Shown one piece after another: positions 1 to 33,765 of a stretch of 33,927 nt of DNA (positions within the stretch are counted from its first letter, which is position 1; every line of letters starts with the position of its first letter). This stretch comes from Vicinamibacterales bacterium (GTDB taxonomy: Bacteria; Acidobacteriota; Vicinamibacteria; Vicinamibacterales; Fen-181), in assembly GCA_036504215.1 (NCBI GenBank), contig DASXVO010000010.1, positions 1-33,927 of the forward strand, given 5' to 3'. The notes under the pieces were generated by a model. That model was not told where the DNA came from. It did not search any database and worked only from the letters and a program-made list of their open reading frames with translations. Position numbers and translations under genes: made by a program.

Positions 1-79
1 GGACCCGTCCTCTCCCCCCGCGGCCTGTCATCGGACGGAAGGCCGCCGCCGGGAGGCTTCGCCCGGACAGCGCGGCGCG

Positions 80-567
80 GCGCGAGATCCGGGGATCGGC
101 CGCCGCGGCCCGGTCCGTCGCACTGGGCTCCGGTTCGGAAGCCCTCACCAAGTCGCCCTGCGCGCCGGCCCGGTCCACGTCGGCCTCCGTGCCTGCCTGC
201 GGCGCGAGATCCGGGGATCGGCCGCTGCGACCCGGTCCGTCACACTGGGCTCCGGTTCGGAAGCCCTCACCAAGTCGCCCTGCGCGCCAGCCCGGTCCAC
301 GTCGGTCTCCGTGCCTGCCTGCGGCGCGAGATCCGGGGATCGGCCGCTGCGACCCGGTCCGTCGCACTGGGCTCCGGTTCGGAAGCCCTCACCACGTCGC
401 CCTGCGCGCCGGCCCGGTCCACGTCGGCCTCCGTGCCTGCCTGCGGCGCGAGATCCGGGGATCGGCCGCCGCGACCCGGTCCGTCGCACTGGGCTCCGGT
501 TCGGAAGACCTCACCAAGTCGCCCTGCGCGCCGGCCCGGTCCACGTCGGCCTCCGTGCCTGCCGCGC
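80..567. repeat. 122-bp tandem repeat array, four copies
   Basis: Four near-identical units begin at 80, 202, 324 and 446, a constant 122-bp spacing, with only scattered single-base differences. A fifth copy would begin at 568 but the sequence diverges there. Each unit contains an imperfect hairpin (in the first copy 126-143, GGCTCCG and CGGAAGCC around a GTT loop). Because 122 is not a multiple of three, any reading frame shifts at every unit, and no codon-like pattern is visible, so I treat the array as non-coding. The flanks 1-79 and 568-690 show no gene that I can support. The next gene downstream is a RAYT-family transposase homologue, a family usually tied to palindromic repeats; whether these repeats are its partners is unknown. 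Confidence 0.95.
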
Positions 568-690
568 GGTGAGCGAGGCCGAGCCACGGGTCTCGCCAAG
601 CGCGGCGTAGACCGCCCACCTGCGTCAGGGCATCGAGCCGGACGGCCCGCGGCCGACGGCCCTCGGTCTGGCCCGGCGTTTGCCCTTCGG

Positions 691-1197
691 ATGGGTATGC
701 TCCCATTCTGCCCTGCCAGGCTCGACGCGACCGATTATGTGGGTCGGCACCGATATTCATTGACGCTGTGCACGGCCGACGCCATCCGCGCCTTCTGCCA
801 TCCGCCCATCGTCTCCCGAACGTTGTCGCAGTTGCGGACACATGCGGCGGCACAACACTTTGCCGTATCTGCGTACTGCTTCCTGCCCGCCCGCATCTGC
901 CTGGTCATCGTCGGCACAAAAGACGATGCGGATCTGAAGAAGATGATCTTCCAGTTCAGGCAGGCGGCGGCGCTCGGATACTGGCAGGCCACGGGCTTCA
1001 TTCTGTGGCAGAGCGGCTACTTCGTGCAGGTGCTGCACGACGAACAGGAAGCGCTGGCGATGTGCCGCACGGTGATTACCGCCCCCATCCGCGCAGGCCT
1101 CACGCGGATGGTCGGCCAGTACCCATTCGCAGGGTCCGACGTCTACCGCCTGGCAGATCTCGAGGACCGATCAGACCAGCATGCATGCTGGTATTGA
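691..1197 (+). CDS. RAYT/Y1-type transposase homologue, catalytically degenerate
   Basis: The protein (168 aa from ATG 691; ATG 697 is an alternative) has the layout of REP-associated tyrosine transposases: an N-terminal RHRYSLTLCT strand, the AYCFLP strand before the catalytic pocket, the WQSGYF segment, then a C-terminal helix ending in a PIRAGL block and a QYPFAGSD block. In active members the strand after AYCF.P carries the HUH metal motif; here it reads ARICLV, so Arg68 and Cys70 replace the two histidines. The tyrosine expected five residues before the Pro of the N-P-V-R-A-G block is Thr127, and the Asn of that block is Ala131. The protein is full length without frameshift, so it may be a domesticated DNA-binding protein rather than simple decay. 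Its stop codon lies inside the operator region of the following antitoxin gene. Confidence 0.75.
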   Translation: MGMLPFCPARLDATDYVGRHRYSLTLCTADAIRAFCHPPIVSRTLSQLRTHAAAQHFAVSAYCFLPARICLVIVGTKDDADLKKMIFQFRQAAALGYWQATGFILWQSGYFVQVLHDEQEALAMCRTVITAPIRAGLTRMVGQYPFAGSDVYRLADLEDRSDQHACWY

Positions 1198-1209
1198 TAC
1201 TGGTATCAT
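1175..1209 (+). promoter_or_regulatory. Palindromic operator and -10 region of the vapBC-like pair
   Basis: An 18-bp perfect palindrome, ACCAGCATGCATGCTGGT, lies at 1175-1192. It is followed by a shorter repeated element (TGGTAT at 1189 and again at 1201) and by a -10-like TATCAT at 1204-1209, seven bases before the antitoxin ATG at 1217. Ribbon-helix-helix antitoxins typically bind such palindromes in their own promoter, so autoregulation is inferred. No Shine-Dalgarno sequence fits between the -10 and the ATG, which suggests a leaderless message. Confidence 0.55.
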
Positions 1210-1216
1210 TGGCGAC

Positions 1217-1420
1217 ATGGCGAAGGTGAAGAAGGTCACGGTCGACCTCCCTGACGACCTCCTGCGCCGCGCGCAGAAATCGACCGGGCAGGGCATCACG
1301 GCCACCATTCGGACCGGGCTGCAACTCGTGGCGGCCACGACCGCCTACGACGAACTCCGCCGACTGCGCGGCCGCGTCAGGGTCTCGGTGGACTGGCAGG
1401 CATTGCGCGAGGACCGATGA
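1217..1420 (+). CDS. vapB: VapB-like antitoxin
   Basis: This 67-residue protein begins KVKKVTVDLPDDLLRRAQ, the beta strand and first helix of a ribbon-helix-helix DNA-binding domain. The acidic and basic C-terminal tail (RVSVDWQALREDR) is the type that wraps around a PIN toxin. It overlaps the downstream PIN gene by four bases (ATGA at 1417-1420), the usual coupling of antitoxin and toxin. An upstream in-frame ATG at 1181 exists but lies inside the palindromic operator, so ATG 1217 is preferred. The product is expected to neutralise the toxin and to repress the operon. Confidence 0.8.
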   Translation: MAKVKKVTVDLPDDLLRRAQKSTGQGITATIRTGLQLVAATTAYDELRRLRGRVRVSVDWQALREDR

Positions 1421-1791
1421 TCGCCCTCGACACGAGTTCGATCGTCGCGTTCCTGAGGGACGAACCTGGCAGCGACGTCGAAGCCATCGCGGTGGCGCTG
1501 ACAGAGCATCAGGCCTGTCTGGCGCCTGCCGTGCTCGCCGAGTTGCTCAGCGATCCGCGCCTGCCGGCGCGCGTCGCATCCTTGTTCCGGCGCTTGCCGC
1601 TGCTGTCGGTATCGGACGGCTACTGGGAGAGAGTCGGCGCGTTGCGGGCGGCCGTCATAGCCCGGGGCCGGACGGCGCGACTGGCCGACGCCCTGATTGC
1701 ACAGACGTGCCTCGACCACGAAGTTGCGCTGGTGACGCGCGATGCCGATTTCCGCAACTTCGCCCTCGTTCGGCCCTTGAAGCTCCCCTGA
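1417..1791 (+). CDS. vapC: VapC-like PIN-domain ribonuclease toxin
   Basis: This 124-residue protein is a single PIN domain. It has the expected acidic residues: Asp5 in the opening IALDTSS strand, Glu42 in LAELLSD, Asp91 in RLADALIAQ and Asp109/Asp111 in TRDADF. These coordinate Mg2+ in VapC enzymes, which cleave specific RNAs such as initiator tRNA or rRNA; the target of this one cannot be read from the sequence. The length and the four-base overlap with the antitoxin gene are typical. All catalytic positions are present, so the toxin looks functional. The gene ends 13 bases before the remnant of a metal-binding domain on the other strand, suggesting that the module landed next to or inside an older gene. 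Confidence 0.88.
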   Translation: MIALDTSSIVAFLRDEPGSDVEAIAVALTEHQACLAPAVLAELLSDPRLPARVASLFRRLPLLSVSDGYWERVGALRAAVIARGRTARLADALIAQTCLDHEVALVTRDADFRNFALVRPLKLP

Positions 1792-1803
1792 ACCCTCACT
1801 CGA

Positions 1804-1914
1804 GACGCATGGTGTATCCTTCAGCGTGTTCTCGATCGTTCGTGCACACGCCGCGCAGTTCATCCCGGTGACAGGCAGCGATACGCTCGAACTGCGAGTC
1901 GAGGGCTCAGACAA
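1804..1914 (-). pseudogene. Remnant of a heavy-metal-associated (HMA) domain, CopA/MerP-like
   Basis: Read on the minus strand, this stretch encodes LPVTGMNCAACARTIENTL followed by KDTPCV. That is the beta1-loop-helix1 part of an HMA domain with the metal-binding CxxC motif (GMNCAAC) intact. After about 37 codons the reading passes into the 3' end of the vapC-like gene on the opposite strand and no longer resembles any HMA continuation. Such domains are found at the N-terminus of copper P-type ATPases or as small chaperones. No other ATPase sequence is seen in the window. I call it a truncated gene fragment. Confidence 0.7.
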
Positions 1915-1979
1915 GGCATGCCTCCACGGGGGATGGTGCGATCTCCCACGATCCCGGGTTCAGGGGCCCGGATTCAGGC

Positions 1980-2005
1980 GTCACCAACCAAGGGTCACCA
2001 ACCAA
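1980..2005. repeat. 12-bp direct repeat next to a -35 box
   Basis: GTCACCAACCAA occurs at 1980-1991 and again at 1994-2005, offset by 14 bp. The second copy touches the -35 hexamer of the promoter for the CsgG-like gene. The position suits a tandem regulator-binding site, but no regulator is identified. Confidence 0.6.
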
Positions 2006-2034
2006 TTGACTCCCCTGTCGCGCGGGACTAATGT
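2006..2034 (+). promoter_or_regulatory. Sigma-70-type promoter of the CsgG-like gene
   Basis: TTGACT (2006-2011) is followed after exactly 17 bp by TAATGT (2029-2034). The ATG at 2072 follows with a good ribosome-binding site, GGGAGGA, at about 2059-2066. This is the clearest -35/-10 pair in the window. Confidence 0.65.
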
Positions 2035-2071
2035 ATTGCCCTTACGGCTCAACCATTTCGGGAGGACACTC

Positions 2072-2764
2072 ATGCGCAAGTTGACTCGTGGCCCGTGGTT
2101 GTTCGCGGCCCTGGCCATCCTGCTCGTTGCGGGTTCGGCGGCTGCCCAGAGCAAGCGTCCGACGGTCGCGCTCCTGGACTTCGACTTCGGCTCCGTCCAG
2201 CACTGGTGGAGCGGCAACCAGGACATCGGCCAGGGCATTTCCGACCTGATCGTCGACGGCCTCGTCGAGGACGGCACCTATCGGGTCATCGAGCGGAAGA
2301 AGCTCGGCGCGATTCTCGCCGAGCAGAACTTCTCGAACAGCGACCGCGCCGACCCGAGCGCGTCCCAGATTGCCAAGATTGGCAAGGCGCTGGGCGTGAA
2401 GTACCTGATTGTCGGCTCCATCACGAAGTTCGGGATGGAGAACAAGGACATGAAGATTGGCGGCGGCGGCTGGGGCGGTGGACGGTTCGGCCTCGGTGAG
2501 GTGGGCACGAAGAAGGGCAAGGCCAACGTGGGGATCACCGCCCGCATGATCGACACGTCCTCCGGCGAAATCATGGCGAGTGCGAAGGGCGATGGCACGT
2601 CCAGCCGCAGCGGCCTGCTCCTCGGCGGCGCCGGCAACCACGCCGCGGGCGAGTTCCAGATCGGCTCCTCGGATTTCCGCGACACGATTCTCGGCGAAGC
2701 GACCGAGCTCGCCGTCAAACAGGTCGTCGCGAAGCTCATCGCCTCCCGGAACCGGCTCGAGTAA
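2072..2764 (+). CDS. CsgG/HfaB-like secreted protein
   Basis: This 230-residue protein begins with a signal peptide (MRKLTR, then a hydrophobic stretch to about residue 24, ending GSAAAQ). The mature part starts RPTVALLDFDFGS and continues with GISDLIVDGLVEDGTYRVIER, then a LAEQNFS stretch and GVKYLIVGSITKF. These are the characteristic strands and helices of the CsgG family, whose best-known members assemble pores for curli secretion in the outer membrane. CsgG itself is a lipoprotein; here no lipobox cysteine is present, so it is probably released to the periplasm. A glycine-rich insert (residues about 129-140) interrupts the fold. No curli-like subunit genes are nearby, so a secretion role is not established. 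ATG 2072 is chosen for its strong ribosome-binding site and signal peptide. Confidence 0.8.
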   Translation: MRKLTRGPWLFAALAILLVAGSAAAQSKRPTVALLDFDFGSVQHWWSGNQDIGQGISDLIVDGLVEDGTYRVIERKKLGAILAEQNFSNSDRADPSASQIAKIGKALGVKYLIVGSITKFGMENKDMKIGGGGWGGGRFGLGEVGTKKGKANVGITARMIDTSSGEIMASAKGDGTSSRSGLLLGGAGNHAAGEFQIGSSDFRDTILGEATELAVKQVVAKLIASRNRLE

Positions 2765-18889: not shown

Positions 18890-19155
18890 ACGTCCAGCGC
18901 CTTCAGCACGGCAGCTGCAGCACCTCCAGCACCCTCAGCACCGCACCTGCAGCACCTCCAGCACCCCTGGCACCCTCAGCACCGCACCTGCAGCACCTCC
19001 AGCACCCCTGGCACCTTCGGCACCGCACCTGCAGCACCTCCAGCACCCCTGGCACCTTCAGCACCGCACCTGTAGCACCTCCAGCACCCCTGGCACCTTC
19101 GGCACCGCACCTGTAGCACCTGTAGCACCTCCAGCACCCTCAGCACCCGTCGCAC
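18890..19155. repeat. Repeat array with 41-bp higher-order unit (9-mers of GCACC)
   Basis: The region between the divergent phosphatase and acpS genes is an array of 9-bp words starting GCACC (GCACCTGCA, GCACCTCCA, GCACCCCTG, GCACCTTCG). Four 9-mers followed by a lone GCACC make a 41-bp unit; unit starts are visible at 18943, 18984, 19025, 19066 and 19107, exactly 41 bp apart, with imperfect copies on either side. The unit length is not a multiple of three, so the Ala/Pro-rich open frame across it is not a gene. The array stops a few bases before the -10-like sequence of acpS. Confidence 0.93.
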
Positions 19156-33585: not shown

Positions 33586-33765
33586 GCACCCCCAGCACCG
33601 GCACCTCCAGCACCTTCAGCACCTCCAGCACCGCACCCGCAGCACCTCCAGCACCTTCAGCACCTCCAGCACCGCACCCGCAGCACCTCCAGCACCTCCA
33701 GCACCTTCAGCACCGCACCCGCAGCACCTCCAGCACCTCCAGCACCCCAAGCACCTGTACCCGCC
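33586..33765. repeat. Second array with the 41-bp higher-order unit
   Basis: 9-bp words starting GCACC (GCACCCGCA, GCACCTCCA, GCACCTTCA) are arranged again as four 9-mers plus one GCACC, a 41-bp unit with visible starts at 33633, 33674 and 33715 and looser copies on both sides. It is the same organisation as at 18890-19155, though with different 9-mer variants. It ends about 20 bases before the -10-like sequence of the ACT-domain gene. The Pro/Ala-rich open frame across it is not a gene. Confidence 0.93.

Follow-up and report, generated by a model that had tools for sequence, protein, structure and literature searches.

Genomic context of the RAYT-derived gene

The window analysed here, the whole stretch of 33,927 nt, is the entire contig C10 of genome G000 (5.92 Mb in 90 contigs), which belongs to the Vicinamibacterales (Acidobacteriota). 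Positions 691–1197 of the plus strand contain an ORF of 168 aa that ends in a stop codon and has no internal stops. The NCBIfam profile NF047646 (REP-associated tyrosine transposase, RAYT) matched the encoded protein with an E value of 1.3e-13 and 51.1 bits, below the curated cut-off of 80 bits, and a Pfam search with the protein returned nothing at E≤0.1. The GC content by codon position (0.61, 0.47 and 0.78) is coding-like. The features of the locus are listed below.

77–563, unstranded: 122-bp unit repeated four times head to tail; it belongs to a hairpin repeat family found across the genus and is not a GTAG REP (repeat and genome searches)
564–645, unstranded: another dispersed part of this composite repeat, ending ~45 bp upstream of the gene (copies on other G000 contigs)
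691–1197, plus strand: RAYT-derived gene, 168 aa, with R68, C70, T127, A131 and H116 at key sites (translation, NF047646, alignments, model and fold match)
892–900, plus strand: former HUH motif, now Arg-Ile-Cys, residues 68–70 (alignments)
1036–1038, plus strand: His116, at a site that is Arg in every relative without loss (64 of 64) and corresponds to E. coli R104, a GTAG contact (alignment; accessible text of PMC8266576)
1069–1083, plus strand: Thr127 and Ala131 in place of the nucleophilic Tyr and the metal-binding Asn (alignments)
1175–1192, unstranded: perfect 18-bp palindrome ACCAGCATGCATGCTGGT over the 3′ end and stop of the gene, just before vapB; a possible operator of the vapBC-like pair (sequence)
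1217–1420, plus strand: putative small VapB-like antitoxin ORF, 67 aa, no Pfam match, also open from 1181, assigned by its position
1417–1791, plus strand: VapC-like PIN-domain toxin, a neighbour outside the feature under study (PF01850, E 3.6e-12; NF047959, E 1.1e-15, below cut-off)
1811–1884, unstranded: start of the homology to the orthologous locus in G002; positions to its left (1–1810) are missing from that locus in G002 and G004 (locus comparison)

The downstream pair was examined as a candidate VapBC module, and consists of a PIN-domain gene preceded by a small ORF without a Pfam match. Compared with the orthologous loci G002:C82 and G004:C205, window positions 1–1810, carrying the repeats, the RAYT-derived gene and the vapBC-like pair, are extra DNA to the left of a CsgG-like gene (2072–2764), and therefore constitute an island specific to the G000 lineage among the genomes examined. 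A remnant reading MNCAACARTIENTL, which we take to resemble the start of a heavy-metal-binding domain, is found to the left of the CsgG-like gene in both G000 and G002 (window 1811–1884, minus strand, and G002:C82:5452–5525). The opposite flank of the site is located on G000:C42, which also starts with a repeat of the 122-bp family; the flanking genes there are presumably a histidine kinase and a sigma-factor gene, their products being named from the translations.

No orthologue of the gene was found in the six family members or the other genomes of the genus that were searched, and the G002 and G004 counterparts of the locus lack it. A protein search of G000 identified a single gene of this RAYT group, and the NF047646 profile detected two further Y1-type genes, on C54 and C21, that keep their HUH motifs. 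Elsewhere in the window, two 41-bp tandem arrays rich in CAGCACCTC units are present at 18911–19147 and 33601–33764, the second at the right end of the contig.

Loss of the active site and of part of the tag-reading pocket

A sequence-only reading of this DNA had described a RAYT homologue with every catalytic residue replaced and an intact frame, and the translation, the NF047646 match and an alignment to 15 relatives confirmed this description. The family residues H68, H70, R116, Y127 and N131 (window numbering) are R68, C70, H116, T127 and A131 in the window protein, which includes all four replacements originally named (Arg68, Cys70, Thr127 and Ala131), and the framework motifs AYCFLP, WQSGY, PIRAGL and PFAGSD are all present. 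The HUH metal-binding motif has become R68-I69-C70, and the nucleophilic Tyr and metal-binding Asn of the Y---NP motif have become T127 and A131. Beyond the replacements originally listed, Asp67 is now Ala, Met65 is Leu and Arg116 is His, and, in the guide-reading loop, the D/E position is now Val112 and the R/H position Gln113. In the relatives without loss, the first of these two loop positions preceding Arg116 is D or E in 64 of 64 sequences and the second is mostly R or H. The original observation stands, and is stronger than stated.

The roles of the guide-reading residues (E. coli W94, Q95, E100, H101 and R104) were taken from the accessible text of PMC6006769 and PMC8266576, where R104 is described as contacting the GTAG tag (PMC8266576; also PMC6006769). 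We equated the family Arg, located 11 residues before the Tyr, with E. coli R104, which stands at the same distance from Tyr115. The window protein keeps the Trp and the Gln of this set and differs at V112, Q113 and H116. As both the Arg at the R104 position and the catalytic residues are replaced, the gene is predicted to have lost catalysis together with part of GTAG-tag reading.

Thirty-five alignment columns were conserved at ≥80% in 67 relatives without loss, a set that includes one duplicate, one distant homologue from G000 itself and one sequence from another order, and from which short rows and two rows with internal stops (L096 and L121) were removed. The window protein keeps 26 of these columns and has changed nine (R29, M63, D65, H66, H68, K88, R114, Y125 and N129 in alignment numbering), and all four textbook catalytic columns are among the nine (hypergeometric P=0.0024). 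The same test gave P=0.021 for L019 and P=0.018 for L103, two relatives in which three of the four catalytic columns are changed.

Predicted structure

AlphaFold2 with 52 relatives in the alignment produced a model of the window protein with a pLDDT of 91.3 and a pTM of 0.85, and the best PDB match of this model in Foldseek was 4er8, a RAYT on a REP hairpin (E 9.6e-9, TM 0.67 by query), consistent with the Y1 transposase fold. Prediction from the single sequence was poor (pLDDT 46), so the fold is supported by homology and conservation rather than independently. The net charge of the whole core was +4 (family 2.7±3.2), that of the DNA-binding helix region +2 (family 4.2±1.5) and that of the N-terminus +1 (family 4.3±2.0); the low charge of the helix and the N-terminus weakens the case for a binding role. 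For the structural check proposed with the sequence-only reading, the alignment-based model predicted a Y1/RAYT fold, and the DNA-binding helix carries less charge than is usual in the family.

Relatives and recurrent loss of the active site

Matches to the window protein were found in 58 of 162 genomes of the order, with a best identity of 44%, and wider searches (193 genomes of the class, the order included, and a draw of 396 genomes of the phylum) revealed no relative closer than this. Single-protein scans of genome-contig and viral-contig collections with the window protein yielded no relative; the pattern of a separate alignment-based genome-contig scan included the first His and was blind to genes lacking it, and that scan was excluded from all counts. 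The relatives are from Acidobacteriota MAGs, and nearly all matches in the order were fetched and aligned.

Five residues (the two HUH His, Arg, Tyr and Asn) were scored over 72 full-length rows. All five are kept in 65 rows, one row (L117) is cut short and does not reach the last two scored columns, and six have lost between two and five: the window gene (RCHTA), L114 (ETDDG), L019 (QHAET), L103 (HQTRT), L127 (HQRYT) and L123 (HQRYE). This damaged set was chosen by eye from the alignment and later counted over all rows. None of the 72 rows has lost exactly one residue, and partial losses were thus not seen among the full-length relatives. Thirteen broken or truncated copies from the order (L096, L115, L117, L121, L122, L124–L126 and L128–L132) keep every scored residue that is still visible. 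With 0 of 13 showing a visible loss, ordinary pseudogenes of the RAYT family look different from the damaged genes, in that their frames break before their active sites go.

L019/L144 (G023:C223), L103/L143 (G098:C62) and L114/L142 (G105:C18) are intact-frame RAYT homologues that lack REPs and have lost the Tyr, the Asn and the guide Arg along with one or both of the catalytic His. Four weak matches with long frames (L136–L139) were set aside, as they are RAYTs of other groups with HUH and Tyr motifs present.

In a tree of 72 sequences (LG+G4), L019 clustered with three sequences without loss with a support of 97 (94 for the three), and the window gene occupied a long branch beside L006 with a support of 54; L103 and L114 were placed elsewhere with weak support. 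The replacements differ among the damaged members, and those of the window gene occur in no relative. On the alignment and the tree, the loss is recurrent in the order: besides that of the window, at least the loss in L019 is clearly independent.

REPs and the 122-bp repeat family

Many RAYT relatives without loss show the canonical REP arrangement, lying between hairpins that start with GTAG or GTGG. At least two recurring GTAG/GTGG hairpins were present within 300 bp of 32 of 63 genes without loss, versus none of the six damaged genes (Fisher P=0.027), in a test that was devised after the loci had been seen and that treats related genes, which are not independent. Excluded from the count were L102, whose flanks are short, L133, which duplicates L028, L134, L135, L147 and genes with <110 aligned columns or internal stops. 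Among the RAYT genes whose residues are intact, around half, including L002, L006, L009, L012 and L026, also had no recurring GTAG/GTGG hairpins in the 300-bp scan, and some of these may use other tags. No GT[AG]G-tagged hairpin was found in window 1–2200, including the 300 bp around the gene, which therefore has no flanking REPs of the RAYT type.

The 122-bp repeat family is dispersed in all five genomes of the genus, including on other G000 contigs, and forms a tandem array in G000; it was absent from the other 156 genomes of the order searched. Near-identical copies of the 564–645 segment lie beside the 122-bp unit on C81, C85, C19 and C42 of G000, with partial copies on C37. Alignment of 21 copies of the hairpin (~100 bp) revealed 30 doubly changed cells, versus 10.2 in shuffles, indicating strong compensatory change. 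A search of window 1–2100 against Rfam returned nothing at E≤0.1. In G002 and G004, both of which carry the repeat family, no RAYT was found by protein search or with NF047646.

Simulated decay and selection

To represent decay, the ancestor of the window branch was reconstructed under a codon model and then allowed to drift neutrally, in 20,000 runs and at 12 divergences. The pattern of the window gene, in which the four catalytic columns are changed, no more than five of the 31 others are changed (26 are kept) and the frame remains open, arose in at most 2e-4 of runs at any divergence; in an earlier series, with 4,000 runs at each divergence, it arose once at best. As the damaged genes were picked from ~70 scanned, this figure needs to be scaled up by that factor, to about 0.014. 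The corresponding figures were 2.2e-3 for L019 and 1.2e-3 for L103, and L114, with 16 of 29 other conserved columns changed, looks decayed. Both the simulation and the comparison with the frame-broken copies were designed after the data had been seen.

A branch model (our own MG94-type code, 71 sequences, 159 codons) gave a background omega of 0.107 and an omega of 0.07 for the window branch, with an interval of about 0.02–0.45 (within 1.9 log units) and rejection of omega 1 (2ΔlnL 8.4). As this branch is long, saturated for synonymous change and inclusive of time before the loss, its omega spans both periods. The omega of L019 was 0.36, above background (2ΔlnL 7.0), so its constraint is partly relaxed. 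Estimates at boundary values, obtained on many saturated terminal branches including those of L103 and L114, were not used.

The sequence-only reading had proposed a search for a clade with the same substitutions under purifying selection. No such clade was found in the 162 genomes of the order, the 193 of the class, the draw of 396 of the phylum or the single-protein genome-contig scan; purifying selection is indicated by an omega well under 1 on the window branch, but on a branch that also covers pre-loss time. Of the two observations named at the outset as grounds for rejecting that reading, the absence of homologues with the same substitutions is what we found, whereas neutral evolution is not. 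Its central proposal, that the chemistry was lost and the fold and frame kept, is supported by the conserved columns, the branch omega, the neutral simulation and the fold match, and on these sequence comparisons neutral decay fits the window gene poorly.

A non-catalytic protein or a recent pseudogene

The presence of an intact gene and fold without the cutting machinery suggests that the gene has been kept for a different job rather than left to decay. We consider that there is about an even chance that it represents a former REP-associated tyrosine transposase that is no longer a nuclease and is retained as a protein that folds but does not catalyse. The comparisons show that the metal-binding residues (both His and the Asn), the nucleophilic Tyr and some of the GTAG-tag pocket are gone, and that the residues of the fold, the frame and the coding composition are kept. 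To go by the fold, the protein may still use its Y1 architecture and helix to bind a structured nucleic acid such as hairpin ssDNA or RNA; it would bind without cutting, would no longer be guided by GTAG and would be maintained by selection for binding. The adjoining repeats are not favoured as its target.

Retention is the better explanation, and the main, live rival is a recent pseudogene, in which constraint was released lately, chance changes struck the active site and the frame has survived so far. We regard this as unlikely, though by no means negligible. The gene is single-copy, has no orthologue in six family members and no REPs, and lies in a repeat-rich neighbourhood at a contig end; the pattern is also ascertained, since the gene was picked for its lost active site, and L114 shows that another damaged gene can look like decay. 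However, four catalytic codons must have changed with 26 of 31 other conserved columns spared and no stop, the rare simulated outcome described above, L019 and L103 exhibit the same pattern, and the frame-broken copies keep their active sites.

The remaining explanations assign the protein an activity or a partner. Action on the 122-bp hairpin repeats next to the gene, which the sequence-only reading had tentatively suggested, would be in keeping with the usual action of RAYTs on hairpin repeats, with the covarying hairpin and with a composite repeat that ends ~45 bp from the gene. We nevertheless find it improbable, given that the repeat family extends to all five genomes of the genus, two of which (G002 and G004) yielded no RAYT in either search, that no GTAG/GTGG REP is nearby and that the GTAG-reading residues are partly lost (V112, Q113 and H116). 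A role as regulator or third part of the vapBC-like pair is more doubtful still: the 3′ end of the gene overlaps the palindrome upstream of vapB, on the same strand and with close spacing, but no toxin–antitoxin gene was noticed beside L103, L114 or L019 in ORF lists judged by eye. Some HUH enzymes use HUQ motifs, and Thr and Cys can be nucleophiles, so that Cys70 or Thr127, or another metal site, might support a different chemistry. This is very unlikely in our view, as all three metal ligands, both His among them, have gone together with the Tyr and the guide Arg, and the replacements vary among the damaged members.

Comparison with known systems

The window protein resembles RAYT/TnpA-REP proteins (NF047646; PDB 4er8) in predicted fold, length, framework motifs and the single copy of its group in the genome. 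Unlike them, it lacks the HUH motif, the Tyr, the metal-binding Asn, the GTAG-reading Arg and flanking REPs, and scores below the curated cut-off; cleavage and rejoining of ssDNA are expected to be absent. It shares the Y1 HUH fold with TnpA of IS200/IS605 (ISDra2 and IS608; Foldseek E about 1e-6), from which it differs by the same catalytic losses; IS ends were scanned as GTAG/GTGG hairpins only. According to the accessible text of PMC6006769, that survey kept 722 of 924 TnpA-Y1 homologues with both core motifs and dropped 202, the absence of motifs suggesting that they were non-functional. The dropped sequences are likewise homologues without an HUH or Y motif, but were there taken as non-functional, whereas here the pattern of change argues for a protein that was kept.

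We tentatively propose, as a possibility somewhat short of even, that REP transposases of the Vicinamibacterales repeatedly became non-catalytic host proteins, in which REPs, active site and tag-reading Arg were lost together and the Y1 fold remained under selection. If so, there would be a class of Y1 pseudoenzymes that surveys discarded as non-functional. RAYTs have already been termed domesticated transposases (PMC8266576, accessible text), and genes that keep the fold without the chemistry and the REPs would separate host function from transposition, making the question of what the host gains testable. Our literature search, with most subscription papers outside its reach, found no account of a maintained, catalytically dead RAYT.

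L123 and L127 (G115 and G117) have lost the metal-binding Asn and carry Gln in place of the second catalytic His, and keep the Tyr and the guide Arg. Their loci in the two species share 5.9 kb of synteny at 86% identity; the proteins are 77% identical and their pairwise omega was 0.18, with omega 1 rejected (2ΔlnL 62.8). On these alignments, the pair offers the best evidence of selection for any damaged member. The window gene has likewise lost the second catalytic His and the Asn and has no REPs, but it differs in having lost the Tyr and guide Arg and shares only 26% identity with the pair, so they are not close kin. As the pair keeps these two residues and has close relatives in two of 162 genomes, what it offers for the window gene is an analogy rather than proof. 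The two HUQ genes (L140:2660–3196 and L141:2562–3107) also share a conserved C-terminal tail ending VTSGCRTGYSSPR.
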